Below are positions 295 to 28,462 of a DNA stretch of 64,000 bases, piece by piece. The notes below the pieces were generated by a model. The model saw only the letters and a program-made list of their open reading frames with translations, was not told the origin of the DNA and did no database searches. The first letter of the stretch is position 1. Every line of letters starts with the position of its first letter. The stretch lies in assembly GCF_036226745.1 (NCBI RefSeq), contig NZ_CP109013.1, forward strand, positions 6,758,001-6,822,000, written 5' to 3'. The position numbers and the translations under genes were made by a program. Origin of the DNA: Streptomyces sp. NBC_00683 (GTDB lineage: Bacteria; Actinomycetota; Actinomycetes; Streptomycetales; Streptomycetaceae).

Positions 295-323
295 TTGTGA
301 ACTGAGTCAATGATTGCCATGCT
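295..323 (+). promoter_or_regulatory. Shared island promoter motif, copy 1
   Basis: TTGTGAACTGAGTCAA lies at 295-310. Read as a promoter, TTGTGA (295-300) is the -35, followed by 17 bases and CATGCT (318-323) as the -10. The same layout recurs at 5276, 10073, 20047 and 28434. The core is an imperfect palindrome (TGAACT, one base, AGTCAA). It precedes the first CoiA-like gene, whose start is at 359. That it acts as a promoter or operator is inferred from its repetition and spacing. Confidence 0.7.
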
Positions 324-358
324 TGCCGGGATGCTTCTCACGGGGGAGGGTGCCCGCC

Positions 359-2728
359 TTGCACGACCATCGCCTTGTCCAGACTGCCGTGATCGGTCAG
401 AAGAACTCCGACCTCCCGATCATCCTGCCCATGGACGCGTTCGAGCTGGACATCTGGCGCAAGAGGCACCCGGACTACACGTACTGGTGCGGACTGCAGC
501 TCGGTGGCTGCGGCGGTGAGCTGAGCGACCGCCGGTGCACCGACAAGGTGTGTCACTTCGCCCACCAACCGGACGCCCCCGTCTGCCGTCGCAAGGCCAC
601 CGGCGAATCCAGTGCGGACCATCTCTTCATCAAGCAGGGCGTCCGGCGCCTGATGGAGGTGCGGAAGCTCCAGGGCAAGGTACAGACACATGATCTCGGG
701 ACCAGCCCCGGTGACGCCGTCGATGTGTATCTCGCCGACAGTCGCCGTCGACTGCGCTTCCAGCTCAGCGCGGTGGACTACCGGACATGGCGCAGAAGCG
801 CCGAGGACCTCGGCGCGCAGGGCGGTGACATCGACTGGATCTTCGGCACCGAAGGGCCTGTCACCCAGCAGTTCCTCGGCCGCCAGGGCTACTGCCTCCG
901 CGTGCGCTGCGAAACGGTCGGAGGGGAGCGGCGCGTGGACATCGGCGCCGAGGCCCGGGACCGTACGGTCGCTTGGACCCCGCTCGAGGACTGCACCCTG
1001 ACACCCTCTGGCATCGTCACGCCTCATGTCGAGGAGATCCGCCTGTCCCGGCCGCTGCCCAGGCCGATCGCTTTCCCGGTCCTGGGTTCGGTGGTCTTCG
1101 CACCCGTCCCGGGAGCCATGACGCCCGAGCGTTCGCCCTTCGAGGAGAACGGCCGACGACTCCTCCTCGCGGACGTGAAGCCGGTGGACGGCCCCATCGT
1201 CCGGACCGTTGTCTCCCTGCCGGGCGACACCGACAGCCCACCCGCCGAACACGTCTACCGCGTCTCCGAAGGTGCTCGCGTCCTGATGGCCGAGGACGGC
1301 GGCGGCTGGGCCGTCAAGGCGGACCGCTACCAGAGGCTCAACGCACACGAAGCCCAGCGCACGGGACTGTGGACCCCGCCTCCCGGGGGCACCATCGAGC
1401 CGGTGGCCGTGACGGCACCTCGCCGCGAGCAGCCGGCGGGCAGGAATTCGGCAGTAGCGCCCACCGTGGCTCAGCCCTCGAAGAAGGCATTGAAGAGGGC
1501 AGCGAAGAAGGTCTCGGAGAAAGCCTCGGAGCAGGCTCAGGCCCCGCGTGGCCCCAGCACCTGGCCCAAGCAGGTGAACGCCCTGCGCGAGGCTCTCAGG
1601 CAGAGCGCCCGCCGGGGCCGTACCACGACGTGGGAAGAGCTCGCCCGGACCGTCGGTCGCGCACTCGACACCTGCACGACCGAGGACCGGATCTCCCTGC
1701 TCCTGGACGTGGATCAGCCGCTGTGGGAGCACGTGCCGGTGCTGTCCGCGCTCGTCAGGGAGAACGGGGCGCCCCCGTCGTATCTGCCGCGACTACTTTC
1801 CCGGCTTGGTGTGGCTGACTCCGAGCGCTCGTCGCAGATCACACGTTGGGCCGATGTGGAGGCCGACCGGGCCTTCGCCGCCTACGCAAAGCCCGCACGC
1901 CTGATGCCGCCTCGGCTGTCTCTCAGGCCCGAGCGGCGCGTGCCGCAGCAGCGGGAGCAGGAGAGCGCGCCGCAACAACCCGCCAAGCCCCGGACCGCCC
2001 CGGCAGTGAGGGAGCCCAGGGTGGAGCCGAAGGTCCAGAACCCGGAGGACGCACGGCGCGTACGGGCGCTCGTCACGCGACTCGACGCGTTGATACCCGG
2101 GCTGGGCAAGGACGCCCGCAGGCCGGCGACCAGAGCTCTCGGTCGTGCGGAAGCCTGGCTCGCCTACCGGGAAGGCGAGAGGCGGCCCCAGGGGCAGCAG
2201 CAGAAAAAGGTGGCGTGTGAGACCCCGGAGTTCGTCGTCAGTCTGCTGGAGTACACGCTTCGGGCAGCCGAGCGGGGGCGCGAGTCCGTAGGGGTGCCGG
2301 GACGGCGGCGTGCGACAGCTCCCGCAGCTCCGCACCAGTCTGCTGAGCAGGCGAAGGCGACTGCGGGAGACCCAGTGGAGTGGCTGACGAGACAACTTAT
2401 CGGTGTGGCGGCCCTGGGGGAGACCATTCCGGCCCTGCACCTGGACGGGGGCGTGCGTCGGCCCGATCTGCAGCAGCGGATGGAGTCGCTGGACAGTCAG
2501 CTTCCGAACGACGTGCCGGTGCTCTCGGCGCTCGTGCTGGGAGCGGACGGCGGACCCGTCCCCTTCTTCCGCGACGTACTCGGTGCTGCGGGTCTTGCCG
2601 TTCCATCGACCGATGAGGCGTTGCGCCGAGTATGGCGTCGCGAGCAGGAACGGGCCCACGCTGCCTACGGGAACCCGCCGAGAGAGCTGCCGCCCCGCCT
2701 TACCCCTGAAGCGAGCTCCTGGGAGTGA
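359..2728 (+). CDS. CoiA-like nuclease-fold protein with two PxLSALV modules (789 aa)
   Basis: Residues ~30-90 carry a Cys/His zinc-finger-like segment with a CHFAH motif and then a SADHLFIK stretch. Residues ~105-180 match the CoiA-like PD-(D/E)XK nuclease fold (D-x-V-D-V strand, FQLS strand, WIFG). Charged linkers follow. Two copies of a helical module with the signature PVLSALV sit at ~404-523 and ~672-785. I chose TTG 359 because GGGGGAGGG (342-350) sits about 8 bases upstream and the paralogue starts at the matching place; GTG 350 is possible. CoiA of naturally competent bacteria acts on incoming DNA, but this protein's substrate is unknown. The shared promoter motif lies 49 bases upstream, and a 270-aa gene follows in the same direction. 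Confidence 0.75.
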   Translation: MHDHRLVQTAVIGQKNSDLPIILPMDAFELDIWRKRHPDYTYWCGLQLGGCGGELSDRRCTDKVCHFAHQPDAPVCRRKATGESSADHLFIKQGVRRLMEVRKLQGKVQTHDLGTSPGDAVDVYLADSRRRLRFQLSAVDYRTWRRSAEDLGAQGGDIDWIFGTEGPVTQQFLGRQGYCLRVRCETVGGERRVDIGAEARDRTVAWTPLEDCTLTPSGIVTPHVEEIRLSRPLPRPIAFPVLGSVVFAPVPGAMTPERSPFEENGRRLLLADVKPVDGPIVRTVVSLPGDTDSPPAEHVYRVSEGARVLMAEDGGGWAVKADRYQRLNAHEAQRTGLWTPPPGGTIEPVAVTAPRREQPAGRNSAVAPTVAQPSKKALKRAAKKVSEKASEQAQAPRGPSTWPKQVNALREALRQSARRGRTTTWEELARTVGRALDTCTTEDRISLLLDVDQPLWEHVPVLSALVRENGAPPSYLPRLLSRLGVADSERSSQITRWADVEADRAFAAYAKPARLMPPRLSLRPERRVPQQREQESAPQQPAKPRTAPAVREPRVEPKVQNPEDARRVRALVTRLDALIPGLGKDARRPATRALGRAEAWLAYREGERRPQGQQQKKVACETPEFVVSLLEYTLRAAERGRESVGVPGRRRATAPAAPHQSAEQAKATAGDPVEWLTRQLIGVAALGETIPALHLDGGVRRPDLQQRMESLDSQLPNDVPVLSALVLGADGGPVPFFRDVLGAAGLAVPSTDEALRRVWRREQERAHAAYGNPPRELPPRLTPEASSWE

Positions 2729-4855: not shown

Positions 4856-5281
4856 ATGTCACCGAGAAACGCCGCTACCGGACTCCGCGCCGAGCCGGCC
4901 GAATTCGTCATCCGCCTCAGCAGCTGGCCGCGTGGGGGATCGCGTATGGCTCCGGCAACGCCTGGACGGTCGCCCTGGTCACGGCTGAACTGGCCGCCAA
5001 CGCGATCACCCACGGTCGCCTGCCCGACCGTGATTTTCGCCTGGCTCTCGGGCTCCTGCCCCACGCCGTGCGTATCGAAGTGACGGACACCCGCCCCGAG
5101 CGCCTCCTGTCGAACCTGTCACCCGCCCTCCCTGATGCCACCGCAGGCCGCGGGCTCCTCATCGTCGACGCGTACGCACCGCTGGGGCTGCACGGTTCAT
5201 GACACCTGCACCAAGACGGTCTGCGCGGAGGTGGACGCGGCGAACGGTACTCAAGCGAGTGAGGCAACTGAGACCTTGTGA
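4856..5281 (+). pseudogene. Broken ATP-binding anti-sigma-type kinase gene (HATPase_c_2)
   Basis: Three frames must be joined to recover a typical Streptomyces RsbW-like ATP-binding protein. The ATG at 4856 starts an N-terminal part (AEPAEFVIRLSS) in one frame. The body (QQLAAWG, ELAANAITHG, IEVTDTRPE, GRGLLIVDAYA) is in another. After a shift near 5180 the usual ending (RWGCTVHD, KTVCAEV) reappears and stops at TGA 5279-5281. The region normally between the first two parts (an STRRGAR-like helix) also seems missing. An internal deletion plus a frameshift make it non-functional. Its ancestral stop overlaps copy 2 of the shared promoter motif. Confidence 0.75.
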
Positions 5282-5304
5282 ACTAAGTGCATGGGTTGCA
5301 TACT
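5276..5304 (+). promoter_or_regulatory. Shared island promoter motif, copy 2
   Basis: TTGTGAACTAAGTGCA at 5276-5291. TTGTGA (5276-5281) is followed by 17 bases and CATACT (5299-5304). The right half-site differs from the consensus (GTGCA instead of GTCAA). It lies 69 bases before the second CoiA-like gene. The sequence after it (TTGCATACTTGCC) also resembles copy 1, so the two CoiA-like promoters are the most alike. Confidence 0.65.
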
Positions 5305-5359
5305 TGCCAGAAATACTTTCAGGTTCGCCCCTGTTGGGGTGAGTGTTCCTCGGAGGGTC

Positions 5360-6892
5360 ATGGCTCCTTTCGACAGTCGGCTCGTGCAGACCGCCGTGAT
5401 CGGCGGGCGCAACTCGGGAACGGCGATCATCCTGCCAGCGGACGCCGACGAGCTCGAATTCTGGCGTCGTCGTCACCCTCGGAACACCTACTGGTGCGGT
5501 AGTCAGCTCGGCGGCTGCGGCAGCGAGTTGTCAGACCGTTTGTACCGGGACAAGGTCTGTCACTTCGCTCATCGGCCGAACACCTCCTGCCATCGGACGG
5601 CGACCGGTGCGAGCAGTGCGGACCACCTCTTCATCAAGGAGGACCTCGCAGGTTGGGCCGGTCGGCAGAAATTGAAGGGGCGCGCAAGTCTCCGCAATCT
5701 CGGTACGGGACCGGGAGACGCTGTCGACTTCCGCGTCAGCGGGGGCCGGCAGCATCTGCGTTTCCAGTTCAGCAGGCTCTCCCACCAGGAATGGACTGGG
5801 ACCTGTTCGCAATTGGCTCGCGAGGCGGCCTCTCTCGACTGGATCTTCGGGCCGGGCTCGGCGCACCACGAGACCATGGAGGCGATGTACGACCAGTACG
5901 GCTTTCTGCTTCGTTTCCGCTTCGAGACACTCGGGGCTGCACGATGCATCCGGATCAGGGCGGAAGAGCCTCGGAGCAGCACCGACTGGGTGCGGCTTGA
6001 CGCCTGCGCGATGACACCGGAAGGGCTGAACGTGCCAGGCGCGGTAAGAAGGCGGACGCGCGCCCGCCCCCGGCCCTCCGCCGCGCCCGGCGGCGCCACG
6101 AAGAGTGCAGTTAAGAGGTCACGTGAGCAGGTGGTAGCAGCGCTGCGGGAAGCCCTCATCGCAGCCGCCCGTCTCAGGACCCGCCCCACGTGGGATGCTC
6201 TCTGCCGCTCGGCAGGAGCTGATCTGCAGGATCTCCCTGACTCAGACCGCCTCAGGATGCTCGTGGAGGTAGACACGCATGGCAGGAGCGAGCCCATGCT
6301 GTCGGCCCTGCTTCGTGCGGACGACGGGAACCCTCCGCCCTATGTTGCCGAAGTCGTGGCTGCGGTGGGTTGCGGTGTCCCGGCGTCCGCGACGGTGCTC
6401 AGGCACTGGTGCCAGCGTGAGGCCGACCGGGTATTCGCCGTGCACGGCGTGCCTTCCCGCACGGCACCCCTGCGTCTGCAACTCGCGTCGGACGGGACCG
6501 TAGGCCGACAGGGATCAGAGGTGGCGGAGCACCGCATGATCGTGCATGTCCAGGGCGGCCCGGTGCTTGGTGCCATTCCGCGGAGAGATGTCGATTTCGT
6601 GTCCGCCCTTCGCGGTGCGAGGCAGCGGGGCAGTGCCAGCCGTATCGGTGTACTCCTGAAGCGTGCCGACGAGGAGATCGACCGGGCCCCTCAGCACCGT
6701 CGTGCCGCTGTGGTGGAAGAGGTGAAGATCGCGCGGCGTTGGCTGGAGGCGCATCCAGTGAAGCGGGACGGCGGGCGTAAGACGAAGAAGGCGTCCAGGG
6801 GTGCATCGCAGCCGGCGGTAGGTAGAAAGGCTCAGCCGAAGCCAAAACGGAAGCCGAAGTCGACTCGGACAAAGAAGAAGAGGTCGAATTGA
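5360..6892 (+). CDS. CoiA-like nuclease-fold protein with one PxLSALV module (510 aa)
   Basis: This is a paralogue of the protein at 359. It has the same N-terminus (RLVQTAVIG), the same Cys-rich finger ending in CHFAH, the SADHLFIK stretch, and the CoiA-like core (GDAVDF strand, LRFQFS, LDWIFG) within residues ~5-175. It keeps one PMLSALL module (~256-375) instead of two, then a helical stretch, and ends in a very basic Lys/Arg tail (~485-510) that could bind nucleic acid. The ATG at 5360 has GGAGGG (5352-5357) just upstream and aligns with the paralogue's start. Gene duplication with module loss or gain is the simplest reading. Catalytic activity is not established. Confidence 0.75.
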   Translation: MAPFDSRLVQTAVIGGRNSGTAIILPADADELEFWRRRHPRNTYWCGSQLGGCGSELSDRLYRDKVCHFAHRPNTSCHRTATGASSADHLFIKEDLAGWAGRQKLKGRASLRNLGTGPGDAVDFRVSGGRQHLRFQFSRLSHQEWTGTCSQLAREAASLDWIFGPGSAHHETMEAMYDQYGFLLRFRFETLGAARCIRIRAEEPRSSTDWVRLDACAMTPEGLNVPGAVRRRTRARPRPSAAPGGATKSAVKRSREQVVAALREALIAAARLRTRPTWDALCRSAGADLQDLPDSDRLRMLVEVDTHGRSEPMLSALLRADDGNPPPYVAEVVAAVGCGVPASATVLRHWCQREADRVFAVHGVPSRTAPLRLQLASDGTVGRQGSEVAEHRMIVHVQGGPVLGAIPRRDVDFVSALRGARQRGSASRIGVLLKRADEEIDRAPQHRRAAVVEEVKIARRWLEAHPVKRDGGRKTKKASRGASQPAVGRKAQPKPKRKPKSTRTKKKRSN

Positions 6893-9878: not shown

Positions 9879-10308
9879 GAGCAACCTCCATGGGATGAAA
9901 GGGAGTTGTGGTGGCCGTGCTTCTCGCGGGTCTCGCGAGCCGCTCCAGAATGACGCCATGTACCTGCCATGCCTAGCTCTTGCGCCATCTGGACGCCAAG
10001 AATTGGTGTGAGTGTCGGGGAGTGGTCGGGGGGCCGCCCGGTGGGGCTCGGCATTCCCGAACCGCCTGGGACTTGTGAACTGAGTCAACGAATGCAATGC
10101 TTGGGTGTCGGTAGGTCGTCGCGAAAGGCTGCCGCCCGGCCCGGATGTCGCCGTGTCGGACCGCTGGCACCGGGCCGTGAGCGGCGGGCAGGGGCCGCGG
10201 GGCGCAACCTGGTCGACCGTCAAAATGGTGTCGTGATGCATATGTTGACGGGTGTGGCTGCATGCCCGTAGCGGCGTTCCCCTGGGCGCTGCCAGGGAGG
10301 GACAGCAG
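9879..10308. other. Divergent promoter region between PLA2 and the HelD-like gene
   Basis: These 430 bases hold the phospholipase promoter on the left, motif copy 3 at 10073, and a ~200-base leader before the HelD-like start. A ~57-codon frame beginning near 10095 is open but lacks a ribosome site and codon bias. No other feature is evident. Confidence 0.45.
10073..10101 (+). promoter_or_regulatory. Shared island promoter motif, copy 3
   Basis: TTGTGAACTGAGTCAA at 10073-10088 is identical to copy 1 over all 16 bases. TTGTGA (10073-10078) is followed by 17 bases and AATGCT (10096-10101). It points to the HelD-like gene at 10309, implying a leader of about 200 bases, longer than for copies 1, 2 and 5. 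Confidence 0.7.
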
Positions 10309-13300
10309 ATGAAGACCACCACACGCGACCAGGTCATCGCCGATGAGCAGAAGGCCGTGGACCGCGCGTACGACTGCTACGCCGAGCGACTCGCCGAGAT
10401 GACCGGGACTTCAGCAGCCACAGCCGCTGCCAGCAACAAGGACGGCATCGCCAACCGCCTCGACGCGGAGGAGAAGGCGGCGGCATACGACGGACTTGGT
10501 GGCGAATCACTCGTCACCGCCCGTGTCGACGCGCCGGAGGAGCCAGGAGGTGCGCCCCTGCCCTGGTACGTCGGGCGACGGGCCGTCTCCGACATCCGGA
10601 CCCGTGACACTGTCGTCGTGCTGTGGACCAGCCCGCTGGCGACGAAGTGGTTCGCGGCGCAGCCGCACGCGCCCGGCGACGTCGCCCTGCGGCGTCAACT
10701 GCGGTGTGTGCAGCGCGTCGTCGAGGACTACTTCGATGACATCGCTCCGGCTCTCCCCGTCCCCGATCCTGCCCTTCCCATGCTCCCGGCCGTGCCGACG
10801 CCTCGGCCGGCCGGGGACGATGCCGCCGTGCCGGAGACTGCCGTTGCCGGCGGAACAGGAGCGGAGTGGTCGGACATCGCCGCACGCGGAGGGCGCCCAC
10901 CGGTCCGTACCCCCGCTGATGTCGTCCGGCTCCAGCGCCGCAAGCCCCTCCAGCCGGACGACTTCCTGCTCCGGGAGCTCCAGCGCTCCCGCAGCGGCCG
11001 CATGAGGGACATCGTCGAGACCATCCGCCGTGACCAGATGGACCTGGTCACCGGCTCCCCTTCGGACATCCTCGTTGTGCAGGGCGGGCCGGGCACGGGC
11101 AAGTCCGCCGTCGGTCTGCACCGTGTGACCTGGCTCGTCAACAATGACCACTTCAAGGCTCAGGACATCCTGGTCATCGGCCCGCACCAGCGCTTCCTCG
11201 ACTACGTCGGCCAGGTCCTGCCCACCCTCGGAACCCGCGACGTCAACGCCGTACAGCTGTCCCGGTTGTGGGACGGCGAGGTGCTCGGCCCCGATACACC
11301 CCAGGCGCGGCTGGTGAAGTCCGACGAACGCATGTCGGCGGTCCTGCGGCGCCGCGTCGAGCACGAGTGCCGTCCGGAGGCCGTCGACGGCCTCCTCACC
11401 GCACCCTCCTTCGAGGGCGATGAGCCCGCCTTCACCATCACCGTCGGCAGTACGACTCTGCGCATTCCGCGCACGGAGGTTCACGCCCTCTTCGAGGAGG
11501 CGCGCGGCGGTGACGGGCCCCACCGTGAGCGCCGCGAGCGCTTCCGTAGCCTGCTCGTCGACCGCCTCCTGCGGGAACTCGCTGCTCTGGCCCCGCGTCG
11601 CGGAGCGGACGGGACGATCCGCCGCAGCCTGGAACGCAACCGCCAGGTGGAGCGCCTCCTCGACCGAGCGTGGCCCTCACCGGGCGCCCGCGAGGCTCTG
11701 CGCAGCCTCTACGACTCTGCCGACCTGCTGCGCGCCTGTGCCGACGGAATTCTCGACGAGGAGGAGCGGGCCGCGCTGCACCGGCCGCGGGCCGACAAGG
11801 CAGAGGACGATCCGTGGACCTTGGACGACCGTGTCTGTCTGGAGGAACTCCGTTACCTCGTCACGGGTGAGACGCCGCGGCGGTACGGCCACATTGTCGT
11901 CGACGAGGCCCAGGATCTGACCCCCATGCAGGCCCGCGCCCTGCGACGCCGCGTCGCCAGGGGCGGCTCGATGACCGTACTCGGCGATCTTGCCCAGGCC
12001 ACCGGCCCGTACCCGTACCCGGGATGGGACCGCCTCGGCGCGCTCCTGTCCGACCACGGTGACTGGCGCATCGAAGAGCTGACCACCAGTTATCGCGTAC
12101 CCGCTGAGATCATGGAGTTCGTCGCTCCGCTGGCTCGCACGGTCGCCCCCTCGCTGCCCTACCCGCGTGCAGTGCGCGAGGCCGGCGCGGAGGCCGTACG
12201 CACGATCGCCACCGAGCCGTGGAAGCTGCTCGGCGATACCGTCACCCAGGCCGTCCGCCTCGTCGGCAGCAGCGACGGGCGCAGCCTTCGTTCCGTCGCC
12301 GTCATCGTTCCCGACGACTCAGGATGGCTCGACGAGATCGCCCGCCATCTGGACGCGGCCGACGGCATCACGGAACACGAACGTGAGGCGGTGTCCGTGC
12401 TGGCCGCCACCCAGGCCAAGGGCATGGAGTACGACCATGTCCTCGTCGTGGAGCCCGCCACCATCGCCGACCGCGGCCCGGCCGGGCTGCGCCAGCTCTA
12501 CATCGCGCTGACCCGCAGTACCCAGAGCCTGACCGTTCTGCACACCTCCCCCCTGCCGGACGCCCTGACGGGCACCGCCGGGATCACGCAGGAACTGCTC
12601 CCCGGGACAGAACTCGGCTCCGGCACCGGCGCCGCACCGGTGGAAGCAGACATCCCGGAGATCGGTACCGACATCCGGGTCCGGGTCATCGGCCATACCA
12701 CCGGCGGCAACTACAAGGTCGAGGCGATCTCCCCCGCCACGGGCCGCCCGCTTCTCATGGCCGTGCGCCACGGCTCCACGCCTCCCGTCCATGGGGCGGA
12801 GCTGGACGCCTGGGTACTCCGTCATGCTTCCAGCGTCAGTTTCGTCACCGTTGACGAACGTGGCCGTCGGCCCATCTCGTCCACCATGGCCCGGCGTTAC
12901 GCGGACGCGCTCGCAGTTGTCGAGGACCTGGCCGGCGGGAACGTCCCCGAGGATTTCCGTGCCCGGCTGTCGGAGCTCAAGGGCATGGCCAACCGCTGCC
13001 TGCGTCTGGACCAGCACGACTGGCTGGATGTCTGGCATGTCCTCGGCTCCCCGGACAGGACCCGACTGAACCTGCTGCGGGACCTGGCGGCTAACGCCAC
13101 CCGCGCGTCCTCCTCCGGCGTACCGGACCTGGACCGGTTTCGGGCCGAATTGGAGCGCAGTGGCCTGGCCGAGGACCTGGCGGAGGCACGGCGGACTATC
13201 GAACGCCGCATCGGTGGCGCGGCCGTCCCGGTGGCGGAGAACGAGAAGGACGGCACGGACTCCACGCAACCGTCCGAGACACCCAAGGCACCTGAGCAGT

Positions 13301-19134: not shown

Positions 19135-19974
19135 TCATGCACTCGTGCTCGCGCCCACGGTGGCCGAATGGTTCGACACCTTGGGCATCGTCTCGTTGGG
19201 GGAGCGGCGCAGCAGCTTCATGCTGCGGCCCTCGACCCAAGCATTCCAGGACTTGAGGTAGTACAGGAGGTGCTCGCGGGAGTCGTCGCGGCGTCGATGT
19301 GCCTTACCGCTGGCCAGGCTGAGCATCGTGTTGCGCAGGGTGAGACGCGGGTCGCCGGACTCCAGCAGCGCGCCCGTGATGATGCCGTCCCGCCACGCGG
19401 TCTGGTCGATGTCGGGGCGTGTCCCTGTGGTGACGTACCAGCCGATGGTTGCTGCCGTGACAGTGATGCGGCAGGCGCGACTGAGTGCGATGCCGTGCTG
19501 GAGCGCGTCGCGGATGCCGGGGTGCTTGTCCAGCATCACCAGCAGCTGGTCGTTGCTGGTGGTCGACGATCCGCCGCTCCAGGCGGAGTTCGGGACGTGC
19601 AGATAGAGGTGGAGCCCGCGCAAGGCTGCCGCGAGGTGTGTGGCGTTGGTCTCGCCGACGAGTGCGAGCGTGTCCCGGCCGGTGCGCTTGCGGCCGGTGT
19701 CCATGACTGTGAACGCAGTGCGGGGCACCCCGTGTGTGACGGTCAGCGGCACCGCGATACCTGCCTTGGCGATCGCTGCGAGTCGGTGCTGGCCGTCGAT
19801 CAGCACGTCGTCCTCGTCGAAGGCGATGCCCTGGTGCGTGAGCTGCCATTCGCCGCGCTGGATCTGGGCGGCAAGCTGCTGGACGGTGCCCTTGCTGAGG
19901 GGGCGGTTACTGGTGTTGTGCGTGAGCCACTCGACGGCCAACTCGGGAGAGACGTTGAGGATTTCCATGTGCAT
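19135..19974 (-). CDS. ParB/sulfiredoxin-fold protein (279 aa)
   Basis: Residues ~5-65 match the ParB-like N-terminal fold: a NRPLSKGTVQQLAAQI helix, then DEDDVLIDGQHRLAAIAKAG. DGQHR is the conserved motif, shared in spirit with DUF262 proteins. The rest is helical with no HTH or nuclease motif that I recognise. ATG 19974 is chosen because AAAGGGG is about nine bases upstream; longer starts add an Arg-rich stretch. Such proteins are frequent in phages, plasmids and defence loci, where they may hydrolyse NTPs or bind DNA. It is divergent from the large SF1 helicase gene, with motif copy 4 between them. Confidence 0.65.
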   Translation of the reverse strand: MHMEILNVSPELAVEWLTHNTSNRPLSKGTVQQLAAQIQRGEWQLTHQGIAFDEDDVLIDGQHRLAAIAKAGIAVPLTVTHGVPRTAFTVMDTGRKRTGRDTLALVGETNATHLAAALRGLHLYLHVPNSAWSGGSSTTSNDQLLVMLDKHPGIRDALQHGIALSRACRITVTAATIGWYVTTGTRPDIDQTAWRDGIITGALLESGDPRLTLRNTMLSLASGKAHRRRDDSREHLLYYLKSWNAWVEGRSMKLLRRSPNETMPKVSNHSATVGASTSA

Positions 19975-20046: not shown

Positions 20047-20074
20047 TTGTGAACTAAGTCAACCAGTCCATATT
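20047..20074 (+). promoter_or_regulatory. Shared island promoter motif, copy 4
   Basis: TTGTGAACTAAGTCAA at 20047-20062. TTGTGA (20047-20052) is followed by 16 bases and CATATT (20069-20074). It reads toward the 1,941-residue helicase gene, with a leader of about 220 bases. On the other strand the element begins TTGACT, which could equally serve as a -35 for the ParB-like gene, so control may be two-way. Confidence 0.65.
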
Positions 20075-20169
20075 ACTGTTCACGCGCCGCGGGTGTGGAT
20101 TGAGTCGCTGCTGTGAGGCTCTGGTGCACCCGCTCTGCGCCACTTCCCCTGGTACGCTCGCCGCGTGTG

Positions 20170-20180
20170 CTGAGTTCACA
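20170..20180 (-). promoter_or_regulatory. Degenerate reverse half of the island motif
   Basis: Read on the minus strand, TGTGAACTCAG matches ten of eleven bases of the shared core TGTGAACTGAG, then diverges. It faces the ParB-like gene. No good -10 follows it, so it may be an extra operator or chance. Confidence 0.3.
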
Positions 20181-20296
20181 CGTGAAGTGGTGGGGGTGTG
20201 CTGGGGGCGCGTGCAAGACCGGCGCTTCGGGTGGCCGGGGCGGGATTTCACAAGTGGCCACCTTGTCGGCGGCCCTCAGCGGCAGTGGGGTGGCGC

Positions 20297-23200
20297 GTGA
20301 GCCAGAGCGAGAACATGCTGGGTGACGGCATTCAGCCGGTCGGTTCCGTGCATCAGTACGACGACGGGTTGATTGTCCGGGTCGACGATGTCGTGCCGTA
20401 CGAGTTGGTGGACGCCGGTGACTCCCACGGGTACCGGCAGGGTGATGACCTCATCCGTTGCACCCTGTACCTCAGCAACGGAACGGGGCAGCCCATCGAT
20501 ATGGGCGGGATCCGTCTGGCGGTCCGCGGAGGGACGTACGGAAAGTCAGCCCGGCAGGTGCTCGACTACCGGACCGAAACGCTCGATGACGAGTTGGACG
20601 GCACTCTGCGCACGGGGCGGCGGCTCTCGGCGACCTGGGCGTACAGCATTCCGGCCGGAACGGCTGGAGAGCTCGACTTCGAAGTGCAGTTCAGGAGCGG
20701 GGACGCGCGGGAGAGCGTCACCTTCACCACCGCACACCCGTCTCGCCCGGTCGATCCCCGGGTTCCCGCCGCCCGGACGGCACCTACAGCACTGCCCGAC
20801 CAGGCAGTGCTGTTCGGTGACGATCAACGGTCGCTGTTCGACACGGCGGAGCCGGAACCGGACGTTTCCGGTGACTACGTTGTCCGCCCGAGCGCTCCCG
20901 TGAAGATCCCCGCTCTGTCCACGGAAAAGACCGATGCCGCCCGCGTCCGGCAGATCTTCCGCTTCCTTGCCGAAGCCGAGGAGTCCAAGGCCAGGCCCGT
21001 CCGCACTCTCGACGGCGCAGCAGGGGCCGTGTGGTTCGAGGAACTGCCGGACGACCCCGGCGTCGCCGTGATGGTCGACGGGGCGCTGCAGACCGACGAC
21101 CCGGCCTGGCTGACTGTCGCACGGCCGGAGCGTGAGGACGCTCCCCAGCCGAAGCCACTGCTGGCGCCCTGGGTGGACGAAACCCGGATCCGAGACTTCA
21201 AGCAGACCCGTGCACCCCATCTGCGGCGGCGGATCGAACCCGAATTTCCGGACTGGTCACAGGGCATCCCGCTGGAGAAGACGTACCACGAACTGGACGC
21301 GCACCCGAAGCGGGAAAAGATCGAGAAGCTGTATGCGGCGTGGGAGCAGGAGTGGGCCGCCTGGGCGGAGCGGCGCCGGGCGATCGACCCGCTCGTGAAG
21401 CTCTACGACCGGCTCCACAAGATGCACGAGGATGCCGCGAATCTTGGTGAGGCCTACGAACTCGTTGTCGGGTTCGGGCGGTTGACCTGGGAGACGACCT
21501 CCGGCCAGCGCGTGGAACGGCACCTTGTCACCCACCGGGCCACCGTGCAGCTCGACCCGTCGACCGGCACCCTTACGGCTGCCCCTGACCCGAGCGGCGT
21601 CGGCATGGAGCTCGAAGAGGGCATGCTCGACGGCGCACAGCACGTCCCGGGCCCCGTCCGGGAGGAGATCGTGGGTGTCCTCGACGGCGCATCGGATGCC
21701 ACGGACCCCGAACAGCTCGATGCCCTGCACACCGCTCTGCGCAGCTGGGTCAATGCCGCTCACAGTGCCGGAAGCTATACGCCGGCCGTGGAGCGCGTCA
21801 GGCCCCGCAGTCTGGATGTGCCACATGTCGGACTCGCCCCGGCACTCGTACTGCGCGAGCGCAACAGGCGTTCCACCCTTGATGCGCTCAAAGCCATCGC
21901 TCGCCAGATCGACGGCGGCACGCCTCCCACCGAGCTGCTCGGCTACATCGCGGGTCGCGACGGGGCCCTCACGGCAGCCGGCCTCGCGGCGGCCCAGGAC
22001 GGCGGGGCACAGACCGACAGCGGTGAGATGTACTTCGCCCTCCCGGCAAACGAGGAGCAGCGCACCATCGCCGAACGGCTGCGGGCCAACAGGCTCGTCG
22101 TCGTCCAGGGGCCGCCCGGGACCGGCAAGACGCACACCATCGCCAACCTGGTGACCGACCTGTTGGCACAGGGCAAGCGTGTCCTGATCACCAGCCACAC
22201 CCCCCGTGCCCTGCGCGTGCTGCGGGACAAGCTGCCGGAGTCCGTGCGCGACTTGTGTGTCAGCCGCACCGAGGACGGCGCTGCCGCGCAGCGTGAACTG
22301 GAAGCGTCCGTCAGCAAGATCCTGAGCGAATACGCCGGTTACGACCCGAATGCGTCGCAGCGCGAGATCCGGACGCTGCAGGCCCGGCTCACCGCAGCCC
22401 GGTCCGCACAGCAGGCCATGCTGCGCGACCTTGCCGTTCTGCGGCAGCAGGAGACCCACCGCTTCGAGGCGGAGATCGGCGACTACAGCGGGAGTCTCCA
22501 GGAGATCGCCGAGCGACTCGCGGGCGAGGCCGGCACGTACGACTGGATCGGCAAGGTCCCACAGGAACAACCGGCCCTGAGCGCCGAGGACGCATTGCGG
22601 GTTCTGTACACCACCCGTGCCTTCACTCCCCACCACCAGGCCCTCGCTGCCGAGGTGCCCGGCCCCTCCGAGCTGCCGAGCCCCGGTGACTTCGAAGAAG
22701 CCGTCGAGGTCGTGCGCTCCGCAGAGGACGCGCACGCGGCCGTGCGACAGGACGTGCTGAGTCAGCAGTACGACGCGGCTATCCGTAGTCTCGCCGAGGA
22801 CGAGCAGGAACGGGTCTCGGCCGCCCTCGACGCCTTCGCCGGTGCCCGCGTACGGGCCGGGTCGTTGGCTGCCGCAGCCGGTGAGTGGGCCGTCGCCCTG
22901 CTGCGTGAAGTAGGCGCAGGTCAGGACTGGCAGACCCGCAGCAGACACGCCGCCGTGACAGAAGCCCTCGCCACCGCCGACGCCTCGCTCTCGGCCATGG
23001 GTAACGCCATGGTCAGCGGACTGGAGCAGTACGATCCGGTCACCGCGCTCGGCCAGGCCACCGCGCTGCACGACGGACTGAAGCAGGGGCAGAAACTGCG
23101 GGGCTCGCTCGGAATGCGCTCGAAGCTGTCCAAGGCCGTCGGACCGTTCGTGGAGGCCGTCCGTGTCGATGGGAGGGCACCTGAGGACGTCGGCACGACC

Positions 23201-26122
23201 GTCGTCGTGCTCGCCCGCATCCAGCTCGAACTTCGACTGGCTCAGGTGGAGTGCGAGTGGGGCACTCCGGCGAATCCCTGGCAGGGGCACGGTCCGCGCC
23301 TCGCCCGCCTGCGGCAGGAGGCCGAGGCGCTCGACGCTCTCCTTGCCGTCGCGGCAGCGCGTACCGAGGTGCTCACGGCCGCTGCCACTTCGCAGGAACT
23401 GGCCGTCGCGACCTGGCACGACCAGTCCGTCGAGAGCGCCGTACGGGCGCTGCTACGAGCGGCCACCACGCTCCGTGCGGCCGAGCAGTCGCGCCGTGTC
23501 ATCGCCGCCACAGAGGAACTTCTCCGCGCTTGGAGCGACCGGGCCGGTGTCTCGCCTGCAGTGGCACGGGCCCTGGACGCCGTCCGCGCCCGGAACCCGG
23601 AGGGCTACCGGGAATTCAGCCAGGAGCTCGCAGAGGTCCGCGAGGCGGCCCGGCTGCGTGCCGAGCAGCACGTGGCGCTCGTCCGCGCGCAGGCAACCTT
23701 CCCTTCGCTGGCCGAGAGGATCACGGGGACACCGGAGGACAACACCTGGGACACGCGCCTTGCCGCCCTGGCCGAGGCCTGGGCCTGGTCCGCCTGGCGC
23801 GAGCGCATGGAACGGCTCACCGACCCGGACGCCGAGCGCACCCTGCGGGGGCGGCTCACCGAGGCTGACGGCGAGGCCCGGATCATGCTCGCGCGCCTCG
23901 CCGCGGCACGCGCCTGGCACCGTTGCCTGGGGCTGCTGACCGGTGACCAGTCGCGTGCGCTCAGCGCGTATCAGCAGGCCGCCCGTCGCATCAAGGGCAA
24001 GTACCAGCACCGCTACCGGCGTGACGCCCAGGCCGCCCTGCGCAAGGCGCAGACGGCCGTACCCGCCTGGATCATGCCCCTGCACCAGGTCGCGGAGACC
24101 GTCCCCATGGACCGACCCGGCCTGTTCGACGTAGTCATCGTCGACGAGGCAAGCCAGTCCGGTCTCGAGGCCATGCTCTTGAGTTGGCTCGCTGACCGCA
24201 TGGTCGTCGTCGGCGACAGCAAGCAGGTCAGCCCCTCCAACGTCGGACTCAAGCAGGACGAGTACTTCCACCTCAGGGACCGGTTGCTCACCGGACTCGA
24301 GACGGACGTCCGCAGCCTCTTCGGCCCGGAGTCCAGTTTCTTCGACCTCACCGAAGCACTCTCCGCGGGCCGGGGCACGCTCATGCTCAAGGAGCACTTC
24401 CGGTGCATGCCGGAGATCATCTCCTTTTCCAACGACCTCTGCTACAACGGCCGGCTACAACCTCTGCGCCAGTACGGTGCCGACCGCCTGCCGCCCGTAC
24501 GCACCGTGTACGTCGGCAACGGCGAGGCCCTCGGCGCCAACAGTCGTCTGGCCAATGCAGCCGAGGCCGAGGCGCTCGTCTCCGAGATCGTGCGCTGCTG
24601 CGCCGACCCCTCGTACGAGGGGAAGACCATGGGTGTCATTAGCCTCCGCGGAAGCAAGGCACACCTGGCGGAGCTGGAGAACCTGCTTGCCGAGCGCCTC
24701 GACTACGAGCAGCGGGAGGAGCGGCGCATCAGGGTCGGCGACGCCGAGGACTTCCAGGGAGACGAGCGCAATATCATGTTCATCTCGTGCGTCAACTCGC
24801 CCACCACGGCCGCTGGGACAGTGCCTGGAGGCTTCACCGGCAAGACGTACGAGCAGCGCCTGAACGTGGCCGCCTCCCGCGCCCAGGACCAGGTGTGGGT
24901 GTTCCACAGTGCCCGCGCCGAGCAGTTCCACGAGAACGACCTGCGCCGCCAGTGGCTCGACCACCTCACCCGGCCCGCCGAGGAGGAAACCGCCGCGGTC
25001 GACGGGAAGGTGCTGCCCGACGTGCGGCACGAGGCGTTCGACAGTCTCTTCCAACAGCAGGTGTACCTGGAACTGACCCGGCGCGACTACCGTGTCCGCC
25101 CCGGCTACAAGGTCGGCCGGCATGCCATCGACCTGGTCGTCGAGGGTGGCACGCGGCGGCTCGCCGTGGCGTGCGACGGCGACACCTTCGCGGAGGGTGA
25201 GGACGCCTCGACGGCAGCTGCCCGGCAGCGCGATCTGGAGCGGGTGGACTGGACGTTCGTACGGATCCGGGGAAGCCGCTTCCACCTTGACCGGGAGCAG
25301 GCGCTGGCACCGCTCTGGGTGGAGCTGGAACGGCTTGGGATCAAGCCTGTCAGGCAAGAGTACCGGGCCGTCGAGGACGGGACAGATGTGAGCGCCCGGG
25401 AGGAGGCAGATGCCGACGAGGGATCGGCCGAACCCGAATCGGAGGCCGTGGGGGTGGACGCCGACGCCGAGGGTTCTGCGCCACAGACTGCGGCCGTACC
25501 CGCCCCGCCCGTTCCGGCTCCGCAGGCAGTGGCACCGGCGACTCCTACGCCTCCGACGCCCTCGACACGGGTTTCTGGGGTGCCGTCGCCCACAGTGTCG
25601 GTACCGGCCCCCGTCGCCGCCCGCAAGGCGGCGGAGCACCGGGAGATCACCCATACCTCCCCGGGTGCCTTCCCCGTACGGGAGATCCCGGCGGCAGCCT
25701 TCCAGCGGCTGGTTCGCGAGATGCAGCAGCTGCAGGCTGCGGTCGACGCACCCAGCGACACGCCGGAGGGCCTCGACGCACCCGAGCTGGTGTTCCTACG
25801 CCGGACGCAGGCCGATCAGCGCGACCGTCGCGCCAAGCGCCTCGTGTTCCTTCGGGCGTTCCTCGACTCTGTGGCAGTCGGCGGAACGGAAGCGCCGCAG
25901 GTGGTCGTCCCCGGTGCGCTTCTCGTCCTCGAGTTCGACGGCCGGGTCGACGAGGAGACGCTGTACACGGTCGCCGAACTGCCCGCGGAGGGCGCGGACA
26001 CCGTCTCCCCCTCCTCGCCGCTCGGGCATGCCCTGATGTGGCAGCGAGTGGGGCGCGACCTCTCGTACAACGCCTCACATGACAAGGCGCACCGAGTCGT
26101 CGTCCGTGAGATCCGGGCCTGA
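20297..26122 (+). CDS. Giant SF1 (DNA2/UPF1-like) helicase with Vsr/DUF559-type nuclease and GreA/B-C-like domain (1941 aa)
   Basis: Residues ~10-150 form a beta-rich, DUF4352-like domain. Helicase domain 1 begins with VVQGPPGTGKTHT (~604). A coiled-coil-rich insertion of roughly 500 residues precedes motif II VVIVDEASQSG (~1280) and GDSKQVSP. Domain 2 carries EDFQGDERNIMF and EQRLNVAASRA (~1520). Then comes a Vsr/DUF559-like nuclease (~1575-1690; GRHAIDLVVEG...LAVACDGD), a Pro-rich linker (~1695-1775), and at ~1865-1938 a segment like the C-terminal domain of GreA/GreB (PGALLVLEF, YTVAELP, SPSSPLGHALMW). Start GTG 20297 is the first in frame with a G-rich ribosome site. No such domain set is known to me as a named system. 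It may couple RNA polymerase binding to nucleic-acid cleavage. Confidence 0.75.
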   Translation: MSQSENMLGDGIQPVGSVHQYDDGLIVRVDDVVPYELVDAGDSHGYRQGDDLIRCTLYLSNGTGQPIDMGGIRLAVRGGTYGKSARQVLDYRTETLDDELDGTLRTGRRLSATWAYSIPAGTAGELDFEVQFRSGDARESVTFTTAHPSRPVDPRVPAARTAPTALPDQAVLFGDDQRSLFDTAEPEPDVSGDYVVRPSAPVKIPALSTEKTDAARVRQIFRFLAEAEESKARPVRTLDGAAGAVWFEELPDDPGVAVMVDGALQTDDPAWLTVARPEREDAPQPKPLLAPWVDETRIRDFKQTRAPHLRRRIEPEFPDWSQGIPLEKTYHELDAHPKREKIEKLYAAWEQEWAAWAERRRAIDPLVKLYDRLHKMHEDAANLGEAYELVVGFGRLTWETTSGQRVERHLVTHRATVQLDPSTGTLTAAPDPSGVGMELEEGMLDGAQHVPGPVREEIVGVLDGASDATDPEQLDALHTALRSWVNAAHSAGSYTPAVERVRPRSLDVPHVGLAPALVLRERNRRSTLDALKAIARQIDGGTPPTELLGYIAGRDGALTAAGLAAAQDGGAQTDSGEMYFALPANEEQRTIAERLRANRLVVVQGPPGTGKTHTIANLVTDLLAQGKRVLITSHTPRALRVLRDKLPESVRDLCVSRTEDGAAAQRELEASVSKILSEYAGYDPNASQREIRTLQARLTAARSAQQAMLRDLAVLRQQETHRFEAEIGDYSGSLQEIAERLAGEAGTYDWIGKVPQEQPALSAEDALRVLYTTRAFTPHHQALAAEVPGPSELPSPGDFEEAVEVVRSAEDAHAAVRQDVLSQQYDAAIRSLAEDEQERVSAALDAFAGARVRAGSLAAAAGEWAVALLREVGAGQDWQTRSRHAAVTEALATADASLSAMGNAMVSGLEQYDPVTALGQATALHDGLKQGQKLRGSLGMRSKLSKAVGPFVEAVRVDGRAPEDVGTTVVVLARIQLELRLAQVECEWGTPANPWQGHGPRLARLRQEAEALDALLAVAAARTEVLTAAATSQELAVATWHDQSVESAVRALLRAATTLRAAEQSRRVIAATEELLRAWSDRAGVSPAVARALDAVRARNPEGYREFSQELAEVREAARLRAEQHVALVRAQATFPSLAERITGTPEDNTWDTRLAALAEAWAWSAWRERMERLTDPDAERTLRGRLTEADGEARIMLARLAAARAWHRCLGLLTGDQSRALSAYQQAARRIKGKYQHRYRRDAQAALRKAQTAVPAWIMPLHQVAETVPMDRPGLFDVVIVDEASQSGLEAMLLSWLADRMVVVGDSKQVSPSNVGLKQDEYFHLRDRLLTGLETDVRSLFGPESSFFDLTEALSAGRGTLMLKEHFRCMPEIISFSNDLCYNGRLQPLRQYGADRLPPVRTVYVGNGEALGANSRLANAAEAEALVSEIVRCCADPSYEGKTMGVISLRGSKAHLAELENLLAERLDYEQREERRIRVGDAEDFQGDERNIMFISCVNSPTTAAGTVPGGFTGKTYEQRLNVAASRAQDQVWVFHSARAEQFHENDLRRQWLDHLTRPAEEETAAVDGKVLPDVRHEAFDSLFQQQVYLELTRRDYRVRPGYKVGRHAIDLVVEGGTRRLAVACDGDTFAEGEDASTAAARQRDLERVDWTFVRIRGSRFHLDREQALAPLWVELERLGIKPVRQEYRAVEDGTDVSAREEADADEGSAEPESEAVGVDADAEGSAPQTAAVPAPPVPAPQAVAPATPTPPTPSTRVSGVPSPTVSVPAPVAARKAAEHREITHTSPGAFPVREIPAAAFQRLVREMQQLQAAVDAPSDTPEGLDAPELVFLRRTQADQRDRRAKRLVFLRAFLDSVAVGGTEAPQVVVPGALLVLEFDGRVDEETLYTVAELPAEGADTVSPSSPLGHALMWQRVGRDLSYNASHDKAHRVVVREIRA

Positions 26123-26128
26123 TCGCAG

Positions 26129-26162: not shown

Positions 26163-26169
26163 ACATCTC

Positions 26170-28341
26170 TCAGTCGGCGACCGGATCGAGCATGGGGCTT
26201 CGCTGGCCGCTCCACGAGACCGACAGGGCGTCACGGGCACGCGTGCACGCGACGAAGAGCAGGCAGTGCTCCGCCATCAGGTCGGACTGGTGCTGAACCG
26301 GGTCCACCTCCGCCGGGGTCACCTGCTGTGCGAAGGGCAGCACCTTGGACGTCACCCCGACCACGCCCACGCAGCGGAACTCCAGCCCCTTCATGGCGTG
26401 CATCGTCGCCACCCGGACCCCCGAGACCTCTGGGCCGGGGTCGTCCTTCACCGCGACCGCAGGGATGCCCTCCCGGCGCAGTCGGGCGATGACAGCATCG
26501 ACGAGAGTGTTGAAACGGGCGCACACCGCGACCTCGGAGGGCTTCACCTTGTCCTTGTCGATCCAGTTCCGGATCTGCTCGGTCAGTGCCTTGAGTTCCT
26601 CGTCCTGGCTGTCGTACCCGTGTGCCGCAGGGAGGCCGCCGTGAAGCTGGGATCGGTAGCCCCGCAGTGAGTCGCGGCCTGCGTCGTCATCGTCGTCCTC
26701 GCCGAGCCTGCCCACCGGCTGCCCGTCGAGCAAGGACGCCGACCAGCGGAGAATCTCCTCCGTGCTGCGGTAGTTGAGGCGCAGCCGGGACGTTCGGCCG
26801 CGGACGTGGACGCCCAGCGACCGCAGTGAGACCCGGGAGTCGTAGACCCGCTGGTGGGGGTCGCCGACCAGGAACATGTCGTCGGACTGCGGCGCCACGG
26901 ATGCGCGCAACACGCGCCACTGGGCCGGGTGCAGGTCCTGCGCCTCGTCGACGACCACGTGACGGTAGCGCGGACCGCTGTCTGCGAGGCAGCGCGCGGC
27001 CTGGTCGCACAGCTGGGTGTACGTTGCGGAATCCCGGGAGGACAGATCGGCGGTAAAGCGCTCCATCACGCGCCAGAGCCGGGCCCGTTGCACCCGCCCC
27101 ACCTGTGTCCCGCGCCCCCGCCGTACACAGCGCAGATACTCCTCGGGCGTGCGGAGCCCCTGGGCGAGTACGACGTTACGGAATTCCTGGGACAGGAACT
27201 GTTCGGTCCAGGGCAGGTCCTCACGGGCGGTGGCCCTCGTCCAGGCACTCCTCTCCGCCGCGCCGGAGAGGGGTTTGGGGGCGCTGCCCCTCGCTCCCCG
27301 GACGACCCGGGCGGCGAGCGAGTCCACGGTGGTCACGTCGACGCGCTTCAGGAGGTGCGCGTCCGTCTCGCCGAGCAGGAGCGCCAGACTGTCCCGCAGT
27401 GCGGCCGCCATGGCGTTGGTGAAAGTGGTCAGCAATATCCGGTCGTCCTCCTGGCCGGTGCGCAGCAAGTGGCGCACACGGTGCAGGGCGACCACCGTCT
27501 TGCCGGTTCCCGGACCGCCTGTGACCTGAGCCGGACCGTTGAAGCCCGGGTGGTACGCGTACCGCTTCTGGGCGGGATGGAGGAAGATCCGCCAGCGTGC
27601 GAGGTCCTCGGTGAGGATGCGTTCCAGCTCACCCGGACCAGTCACCTCCACGAGGCGGTCGGGGCTGTTGAGGATCGCCTCGGCGAGGGTGACGGCGGGC
27701 CGGTCCTCGGCCGTGCGGACCATCTGACCACGTGAGGCGATCAGCTGCTCCCAGACCTCCTGGACCGGGTAGTCGGCCGCCAGGTACTCCAGCACCTCGT
27801 ACTGGTCGGCCGGCATCATCGGCGGGGCCATGACCGTCAGGTCGTCGGCGGTGACGCAGACCCGGGCGAGTCGCAGGACCTGGTCGTCGATGCCCAGGTC
27901 ACGCAGCACGGTGTCCGAGTGCCGCTCGAAGAGACGCGCGGGAGTGGCGACCGCCTTGCTCTCGAAGTACGTCTCCATCTGCTCCAGGGCCTCGACGTTG
28001 CGCACTTCGAGGCCGCCGGTCGCGCTGTTGACGGAATAGGCGCGCTTGCAGGCCCAGTGGATCGCCTCGTCGTGGGTGGCGACCCGCAGCAGGGTGAACA
28101 GTTCGCTGCCGTCGTCGGGGGCGAGAAGGACACCGCGGTAGGACTTGGTGATGCGAATCGTTCGGATCCGTCGGTCGCGAGCCCGCTCCAGCTTCTCCAG
28201 ATGCATGCCCTTGCTGGCGTGCAGTTGGGGGACAGTCAGACTCCGAAACATCTGGATCGCTTCGTTGACCTCCTTCTGCACAGGTCTCTGCAGCGAGATG
28301 AGGTCCGCGACGAAGTCGTCGGAGAGGGCGAGTCGGGGCAT
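26170..28341 (-). CDS. UvrD/Rep-type helicase with RelE/ParE-like N-terminal domain (723 aa)
   Basis: The first ~95 residues read like a RelE/ParE toxin fold: FVADLISLQRPVQKEVNEAI, KGMHLEKLERARDRRIRTIR, YRGVLLAP, LLRVATHDEAIHWA. Then SF1A helicase motifs follow: QVTGGPGTGKTVVALHR (~270), TTFTNAM, VVVDEAQDLHPAQW (~462), GDPHQRVYDSR, LNYRST, ATMHAMKGLEF, and a final VACTRAR. It ends with a short tail. The ATG at 28341 faces the drm operon across a 183-base divergent region that contains motif copy 5. Fusion of a toxin-like fold to a UvrD core recurs in actinobacterial and cyanobacterial proteins that I recall, but its role is unknown. Confidence 0.75.
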   Translation of the reverse strand: MPRLALSDDFVADLISLQRPVQKEVNEAIQMFRSLTVPQLHASKGMHLEKLERARDRRIRTIRITKSYRGVLLAPDDGSELFTLLRVATHDEAIHWACKRAYSVNSATGGLEVRNVEALEQMETYFESKAVATPARLFERHSDTVLRDLGIDDQVLRLARVCVTADDLTVMAPPMMPADQYEVLEYLAADYPVQEVWEQLIASRGQMVRTAEDRPAVTLAEAILNSPDRLVEVTGPGELERILTEDLARWRIFLHPAQKRYAYHPGFNGPAQVTGGPGTGKTVVALHRVRHLLRTGQEDDRILLTTFTNAMAAALRDSLALLLGETDAHLLKRVDVTTVDSLAARVVRGARGSAPKPLSGAAERSAWTRATAREDLPWTEQFLSQEFRNVVLAQGLRTPEEYLRCVRRGRGTQVGRVQRARLWRVMERFTADLSSRDSATYTQLCDQAARCLADSGPRYRHVVVDEAQDLHPAQWRVLRASVAPQSDDMFLVGDPHQRVYDSRVSLRSLGVHVRGRTSRLRLNYRSTEEILRWSASLLDGQPVGRLGEDDDDDAGRDSLRGYRSQLHGGLPAAHGYDSQDEELKALTEQIRNWIDKDKVKPSEVAVCARFNTLVDAVIARLRREGIPAVAVKDDPGPEVSGVRVATMHAMKGLEFRCVGVVGVTSKVLPFAQQVTPAEVDPVQHQSDLMAEHCLLFVACTRARDALSVSWSGQRSPMLDPVAD

Positions 28342-28433
28342 GGGCGTCCTCAGATCGCTGGGCGGCCGGCGGCCGGTGGTCGTGGAACAGAGTAGATACT
28401 CAGCACCGGCGGAAGCGAGACGGCAGGCAGGTA

Positions 28434-28462
28434 TTGTGTGAACTGAGTCAACGATCTATGTT
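28434..28462 (+). promoter_or_regulatory. Shared island promoter motif, copy 5
   Basis: The core GTGAACTGAGTCAA lies at 28438-28451. With TTGTGT (28434-28439) as -35, 17 bases separate it from TATGTT (28457-28462), the best -10 of the five. It lies 74 bases before drmA. Confidence 0.7.

Follow-up and report, generated by a model that had tools for sequence, protein, structure and literature searches.

The co-ordination of the many systems gathered in one defence island is a largely open question, and it is raised by a stretch of 64,000 nucleotides from the genome of Streptomyces sp. NBC_00683 (contig NZ_CP109013.1, positions 6,758,001 to 6,822,000; called the window below). A preliminary description, made from the letters alone, had noted a short core before five units of this window and proposed an undescribed defence regulon with a shared switch. 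Is there such a switch, and which protein would read it? The shared control element is TGTGAACTNAGTNMAYR, a 17-bp imperfect dyad. It is probably the operator of an N6-adenine methyltransferase with a putative extra N-terminal helix-turn-helix (HTH), and the switch of a multi-system defence island. At the level of sequence this is carried by the common dyad, its conservation, the spectrum of its targets, its tie to the HTH-methyltransferase genes and the joint change of helix and dyad. The link to the methyltransferase is new, since no regulator had been proposed.

The aligned sites read TGTGAACT-N-AGTNMAYR, with T or G preceding the dyad in the window. The core had been reported as an imperfect palindrome at five places. 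The element is real and larger than noted, and four of the five copies carry GTGAACTRAGTCAA exactly (297, 10075, 20049 and 28438, + strand), while the copy at 5278, GTGAACTAAGTGCA, has two mismatches to the core. All five point toward the open reading frame (ORF) named for them, and in all five a TTGTGA or TTGTGT hexamer is followed after 16-17 nt, counted from this hexamer, by NATNNT, a promoter-like arrangement, as had been stated. Copies 1 and 3 have 18 identical bases in common (ACTTGTGAACTGAGTCAA) and not 16. The count of five was short by one: an inverted copy (20164-20180) had been overlooked. It lies directly downstream of an extended -10-like sequence, TGGTACGCT, and an inverted copy just after such a sequence is a recurrent arrangement ahead of giant-helicase genes. 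Five of the six copies in the window are oriented to a gene and stand at a -35-like position. The defence-type character claimed for the products is confirmed for DrmA-B-C and the giant helicase-nuclease (PADLOC and Pfam), but the HelD-like protein stays below the cut-offs and the CoiA-like ORFs have no such match.

The count of loose matches in the window is not striking: with up to three mismatches six are found versus a mean of 2.7 in shuffled sequence, and 7 of 100 shuffles reach six. A 17-bp matrix, trained on 52 distinct sites of which nine are methyltransferase promoters, gives six sites above 25 bits in the window and two further ones at 12.1 and 12.6; in 20 dinucleotide shuffles of the window none reaches 20 and two reach 15. 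In the whole genome GTGAACTRAGTCAA has four exact matches, all within the window (control 0). The pattern TGTGAACTNAG has seven in 8.52 Mb, all located in 30 kb at 6756802-6786447 (control 0). TGTGAACNNAGTNMAY is matched exactly eight times (control 1): six of these matches precede island genes, and the other two precede HTH-methyltransferase genes, at 6738968-6738983 (19 kb left of the window) and at 5119189 (1.6 Mb away). One mismatch adds eight more, two of them in the island (6741340 before drmD, and 6778165) and six outside it with no recognised defence gene. The eight exact and two one-mismatch island sites together make ten sites, which stand before nine units; most of them fall within 50 kb, and a single one is 1.6 Mb distant. 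A further palindrome match in the genome, next to a TetR gene (2757673), seems to be fortuitous or part of an unrelated operator. The random genome-wide placement that would have spoken against the regulon is not seen, as all eight exact TGTGAACNNAGTNMAY matches precede island or HTH-methyltransferase genes.

In 392 Streptomyces genomes the pattern TGTGAACTNAGTNNA finds 87 sites in 40 genomes, and an island often has several of them; the reversed-pattern control gives 11 single hits. The exact core alone has 22 matches in 13 of 199 genomes, the own genome included (control 0). Outside the genus a slightly longer pattern gave four matches in three of 354 genomes, below the control (7). The stretches around all 87 sites were fetched and the downstream genes classified. 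Shortly upstream of recurrent island genes stand 79 of the 87 sites, the similarity beginning no more than 550 nt from the site; "recurrent" means seen in at least three of these loci, and the reference families were clustered from the same loci, with no independent annotation. The genes that follow are Ser/Thr kinases (23), DrmA (15), CoiA-like (11), giant helicase (10), HTH-methyltransferase (8), the c21 family (5), lipoprotein-like (4), HelD-like (2) and DGQHR (1). The two kinases scanned match the PADLOC models PD-T4-6 and mad6; kinases flank pPIWI-RE genes in locus L032, a kinase adjoins DruE- and DpdE-like helicases in L026, and these gene clusters recur in other kinase loci. The enrichment before defence-island genes expected in related streptomycetes is therefore found, and this non-random placement in genome and genus makes the undescribed regulon with a shared switch well supported by sequence.

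The conservation of the dyad was followed at drmA loci, which were gathered from GTDB genomes by protein similarity with no motif selection (the best 80 of 184). At least 13 of 16 motif positions are present in 28 of the 29 Streptomycetaceae loci with upstream DNA (two of the 29 come from outside Streptomyces), the sole exception (L171) having a DrmA of 59% identity, and in only one (L187) of 39 loci from other taxa. Across an alignment of 21 close orthologues, that of the window included, the dyad is 97% conserved, while in the 17-column flanks conservation falls to 60% on the left and 56-78% on the right. When 646 kb in 28 drmA loci were scanned with the matrix, most high scores fell at the two copies ahead of the giant helicase, ahead of drmA and ahead of a small number of other starts. 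An analogous 17-bp dyad, TGTGTA-N5-TACACR, is found 97-147 nt before the match start in five of the six Actinomadura drmA loci with upstream DNA (L172, L173, L177, L180 and L182, not L190).

Gene families clustered from the fetched loci did not include one present in every locus. An N6-methyltransferase with the N-terminal HTH-like stretch LAxIARxAGVGRAAVSNWRRRH, however, co-occurs with the element. The own-genome methyltransferase at 5119305 was used as query in 80 genomes, 40 site-bearing and 40 site-free, the latter chosen along the list from those without a TGTGAACTNAGTNNA match. Among the matches listed, the island form of the enzyme (43-50% identity to the query) is present in 35 of the 40 site-bearing genomes and in one of the 40 site-free ones (G039); in 32 of the 35 it lies on the same contig as the sites. 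The Fisher p value is 7e-16, and 2e-15 when the own genome and G172, whose match is the methyltransferase promoter itself, are left out. The island form is not among the matches listed for G186, G054, G008 and G053, in which the single site is inside a gene or before a gene without a defence look, nor for G310, in which it is the promoter of the other methyltransferase form.

The methyltransferase genes themselves carry the element. For those with the helix GVGRAAVSNWRRRH the dyad is found upstream in 59 of 60 distinct regions at a score of at least 10, and 58 score at least 15; the lone exception is L245 (TGTGTATCGCGTCAACA), and eight of the 60 regions came in through the motif search. Random 380-nt windows reached a score of at least 10 in 166 of 3000 cases, a control inflated because these windows came from site-rich loci, so the shuffles are the cleaner one. 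The solitary methyltransferase I keeps the dyad even in genomes that yielded no site to the core search. Position 8 of the dyad is C in 23 of 24 scoring subtype I genes, A (23), T (10) or G (1) in 34 scoring subtype II genes, and T in 26 of 28 drmA operators, so the effector sites are the most symmetric. All four methyltransferases scanned match N6_Mtase (PF02384) above the cut-off; the enzyme is of the N6, HsdM-like type and not a cytosine-C5 Type II enzyme. An alignment of 26 of the proteins shows, at the N-terminus, a helix-like stretch in which many residues are invariant.

The helix and the dyad also change together. In eight methyltransferases RAT replaces RAA, seven having GVTRATVSNWRRRH (GVTRATV) and one GVGRATVTNWRRRH (GVGRATV), and none of the eight carries the RAA-type dyad upstream. 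By alignment, a box TGAAAGC-N3-GTC about 100 nt before the start is common to all eight; it equals the RAA dyad in length and has a like right half, but a different left half. The pattern TGAAAGCRNNGTCAA occurs in all eight RAT genomes (in seven at the methyltransferase promoter, in G305 before a kinase) versus none of 12 other genomes, which were hand-picked and mostly have no or a weak methyltransferase match. A slightly wider RAT box gives 79 sites in 69 of the 392 genomes (control 14) and none in the own genome. Its targets were read in the first 30 loci, with 32 boxes, and in 16 fetched stretches, with 18 boxes at partly the same places; the defence products were named by eye. In the former, 22 of the 32 boxes lead a RAT-type methyltransferase (21 by pattern, L315 by eye) and none the RAA type. 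The boxes of a divergent pair in L319 (G129) precede an OLD-type ATPase at 470 nt and a type IIG-like enzyme at 595 nt, the box of L328 precedes an HsdM remnant, and seven of the 32 are without clear target. In the fetched stretches six boxes precede a RAT-type methyltransferase and four precede other defence genes, namely a Ser/Thr kinase in G305 (255 nt), HsdM in G173 (181 nt) and the G129 pair. The methyltransferase genes of L178 (GVTRAAV) and L204 (GFGRAAV) carry TGTGAACAATATACATA and TGTGAACTGGATACACT upstream, consistent with a pairing of RAA with TGTGAAC. Subtype I is about as distant from II as it is from III (43-50% versus 42-47% identity). Subtypes I and II nevertheless have helix and dyad in common and III has neither, which indicates that the dyad follows the helix.

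Several observations weigh against the methyltransferase as the reader of the dyad and switch of the island. Pfam HTH_17 matches the N-terminus only weakly, in one of the three scanned proteins that include it (19.6 bits, cut-off 27). Eight of the 87 sites have no recurrent downstream gene; no RAT-type methyltransferase follows 10 of the 32 RAT boxes read in the first 30 loci, and 8 of the 18 in the fetched stretches are without clear target. The Actinomadura enzymes are of the RAA type and lie behind drmA genes with the TGTGTA dyad, so the left half is not set by RAA alone. Further enzymes of the RAA type from outside Streptomyces (for example L170, L186, L190 and L195) have neither dyad, several of them being inside an operon. 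Judged by eye, the distance between the start of the dyad and the putative -10 sequence is about 21-24 nt at the drmA, CoiA and island-methyltransferase genes, about 50 nt in kinase-pPIWI loci and about 70 nt for methyltransferase I; one mode of action may thus not fit all. Finally, under pure repression the effectors would be on in a cell newly entered by an island, as long as methylation there is incomplete.

In the proposed mechanism the methyltransferase would bind the 17-bp dyad both in its own promoter and in those of unrelated defence units of the island, namely the DISARM genes, the giant helicase-nuclease and the CoiA-like units; in other genomes its targets would include defence kinases beside pPIWI-RE and SNF2/DruE modules. 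One protein level would then govern both protective methylation and costly effectors. Unmodified incoming DNA might draw the enzyme away from its operators and so release the units. Repression is somewhat favoured as the sign of the control, because the dyad overlaps the -35 and spacer of the promoter-like sequences of the drmA, CoiA-like and island-methyltransferase genes, and the second giant-helicase copy is at the likely transcription start. We tentatively extend this to an island-wide sensor, which would keep the systems off while there is little to methylate and let unmodified phage or plasmid DNA induce the whole island; this extension is possible, but the odds are rather against it. 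Defence genes could then join the regulon by acquiring the dyad, and parallel regulons could arise by a joint change of HTH and dyad.

The strongest alternative differs on the sign only: the methyltransferase may activate the effector units or act on them as a dual regulator. The position of the dyad between -35 and -10 agrees with this, since MerR-like regulators act from the promoter spacer, and a timing with the methyltransferase before the effectors would be safer. According to PMC6100179, moreover, M.SsoII represses M and stimulates R. Activation is doubtful, because spacers of the normal 16-17 nt and a second giant-helicase site downstream of the -10 are easier to understand for a repressor.

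It is also conceivable, but unlikely, that a separate chromosomal transcription factor reads the dyad and controls both HTH-methyltransferase genes and effectors, the HTH of the enzyme serving otherwise. The near confinement of the dyad to Streptomycetaceae would be expected for a family-specific regulator, and the lack of a clustered family common to every fetched locus fits as well. Such a factor leaves unexplained the joint change of box and methyltransferase helix, as well as the dyad kept at the solitary methyltransferase I where the core search found no site.

The remaining explanations fare much worse. An alternative sigma factor with the element as its -35 region would account for five of six window copies being oriented to the gene at a -35-like place; against it stand the spread of distances to any -10 (21 to about 70 nt), the recurrent inverted copy on the downstream side of a -10, and the dyad symmetry. 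A sigma factor or simple promoter consensus was accordingly rejected, by the spacing (no fixed -10 distance, by eye) and the inverted copy, and keeps hardly any probability. Equally improbable is a local regulator, either the DGQHR protein or a set of XRE, DUF397 and HATPase genes resembling WhiJ-BldB-AbaA. XRE genes occur in nine and HATPase genes in ten of the fetched loci, but the set is absent from most element-bearing ones, pPIWI-kinase stretches included, and WhiJ9 is reported to bind direct repeats CGXXCTCAAC, unlike the dyad (PMC10294661). The XRE/DUF397 pair was rejected on both counts. Common ancestry of promoter DNA without regulation can practically be dismissed: the drmA and giant-helicase units are syntenic orthologues across genomes, but the dyad is kept while its flanks have diverged and stands ahead of unrelated families.

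The operator copies and the genes of the window are collected in Table 1.

Table 1. Operator copies and genes in the window (positions in the 64,000-nucleotide stretch)
Feature	Position	Strand	Sequence or remark
Operator copy 1	296..312	+	TGTGAACTGAGTCAATG; TTGTGA 295-300, CATGCT 318-323
Operator copy 2	5277..5293	+	TGTGAACTAAGTGCATG; CATACT 5299-5304
Operator copy 3	10074..10090	+	TGTGAACTGAGTCAACG; AATGCT 10096-10101
Operator copy 4	20048..20064	+	TGTGAACTAAGTCAACC; CATATT 20069-20074; between 279-residue protein gene and giant helicase
Inverted operator copy	20164..20180	-	TGTGAACTCAGCACACG; just downstream of TGGTACGCT 20150-20158
Operator copy 5	28437..28453	+	TGTGAACTGAGTCAACG; TTGTGT 28434-28439, TATGTT 28457-28462
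"CoiA-like" ORF 1	314..2728	+	Start codon uncertain, probably downstream of 314
"CoiA-like" ORF 2	5291..6892	+	Real start probably downstream of 5291
HelD/HelR-like SF1 helicase ORF	10252..13797	+	HelD/UvrD-like, below NCBIfam cut-offs
279-residue protein, DGQHR-like stretch	19135..19974	-	TIGR03187 15.7 bits (cut-off 58.9); divergent from giant helicase
Giant SF1 helicase with MTES_1575 nuclease domain	20198..26122	+	Start 20198 or 20285; PADLOC/Pfam
UvrD/GajB-like helicase	26170..28341	-	Divergent from drmA
drmA	28525..32343	+	PADLOC
drmB	32340..34232	+	PADLOC
drmC	34229..34993	+	PADLOC

The name "CoiA-like" is that of the preliminary description for both ORFs. The first has no family match in Pfam, PADLOC or NCBIfam, and its cluster has 12 members, spread over 11 loci with the window counted; the second has none in Pfam or PADLOC. 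The GTGCATG end of operator copy 2 is found in ten of 12 other CoiA-class sites listed, and GTACATG in two. The gene caller was incomplete and missed ORF 2 and several methyltransferases. All three DISARM genes drmA, drmB and drmC are present (PADLOC); no DISARM methyltransferase was called beside them in the window, and the HTH-methyltransferase gene is located 48 kb upstream of drmA. In several other genera such a gene lies directly behind the drm genes.

A syntenic module spans 16065-34993 of the window and consists of a GmrSD-type enzyme, the 279-residue DGQHR-like protein, the giant helicase-MTES nuclease, the UvrD-like helicase and drmABC. Many of the Streptomyces loci fetched contain it too, with protein identities of about 65-90%, which gives it the look of a single compound system. 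The GmrSD-type enzyme (16065-18992) has an O6-methylguanine-methyltransferase-like DNA-binding domain (PF01035) after two GmrSD domains. A 122-residue protein without known family (18661-19029; cluster c12, 10 loci including the window) adjoins GmrSD here and is found elsewhere in divergent orientation beside CoiA-like or c21 sites. In L036, L037, L039, L096, L098, L105, L116, L121 and L122, XRE-DUF5753/DUF397 genes, mostly with a HATPase (WhiJ-BldB-AbaA-like), lie near drmD-MmeI genes and element-bearing units. A TTCAC-like second half-site accompanies many kinase-pPIWI sites (L032, L079-L093); it lies about 38 nt downstream from where the dyad starts, and a TACNCT-like hexamer comes after it. 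A dyad copy also occurs about 110 nt before a Ser/Thr kinase gene in L129 (1501-1517; G692, of another family than Streptomyces); it may be chance, as the matches outside the genus do not exceed the control.

If the proposal is correct, one operator would serve DISARM, pPIWI-RE kinases, SNF2/DruE modules and unnamed units, so that the island would be one regulated organ. The dyad would also be a sequence handle for finding defence genes without known function, and two matched helix-dyad pairs are available for a specificity swap. For Streptomyces genetics the regulon may further be relevant to how inducible DNA barriers are. According to PMC10117723, no defence system except one dGTPase changed consistently upon phage infection of S. 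venezuelae, in a strain that may or may not carry the element.

This arrangement can be compared with known systems. A search of limited literature listings gave no description of this regulon or of a methyltransferase regulating a multi-system island, and the sequence strings of the element gave no match in the literature search. Self-repressing HTH-methyltransferases in restriction-modification (R-M) systems are already known, as is a defence island under one stand-alone repressor; within the literature searched we saw no case in which an N6 enzyme of HsdM type is linked to several defence systems through their separate promoters. The methylation-associated defence system (MADS) has some likeness, as the PADLOC model mad2 partly matches two HTH-methyltransferases scanned and mad6 the two kinases; the NCBIfam model MAD2, however, gives the HTH-methyltransferase 23 bits versus a cut-off of 720. 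BrxR, the WYL regulator of BREX, is described as a dedicated transcriptional regulator of a defence locus, as is proposed here, but is a separate gene for one BREX locus (PMC9122589). RptR is likewise one repressor over a defence island, but according to PMC12255303 it is a stand-alone non-enzyme that reads 6-bp palindromes in its own promoter region and not many separate promoters. In R-M systems, methyltransferases with an N-terminal HTH repress their own gene (PMC3874152), and for M.SsoII methylation and operator binding are reported as mutually exclusive (PMC6100179). The M.SsoII/Ecl18kI type probably has the closest design: through its N-terminal HTH the methyltransferase binds a dyad at its own promoter and governs modification plus effector genes (PMC6100179, PMC3978073, PMC3874152), as is proposed here. 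M.SsoII itself is described as a Type II enzyme of the cytosine-C5 kind whose 15-bp site lies in a single R-M intergenic region (PMC6100179), while the enzyme considered here is HsdM-like and of the N6 type, has a putative HTH_17-like domain, and is tied to the ten sites before nine units.

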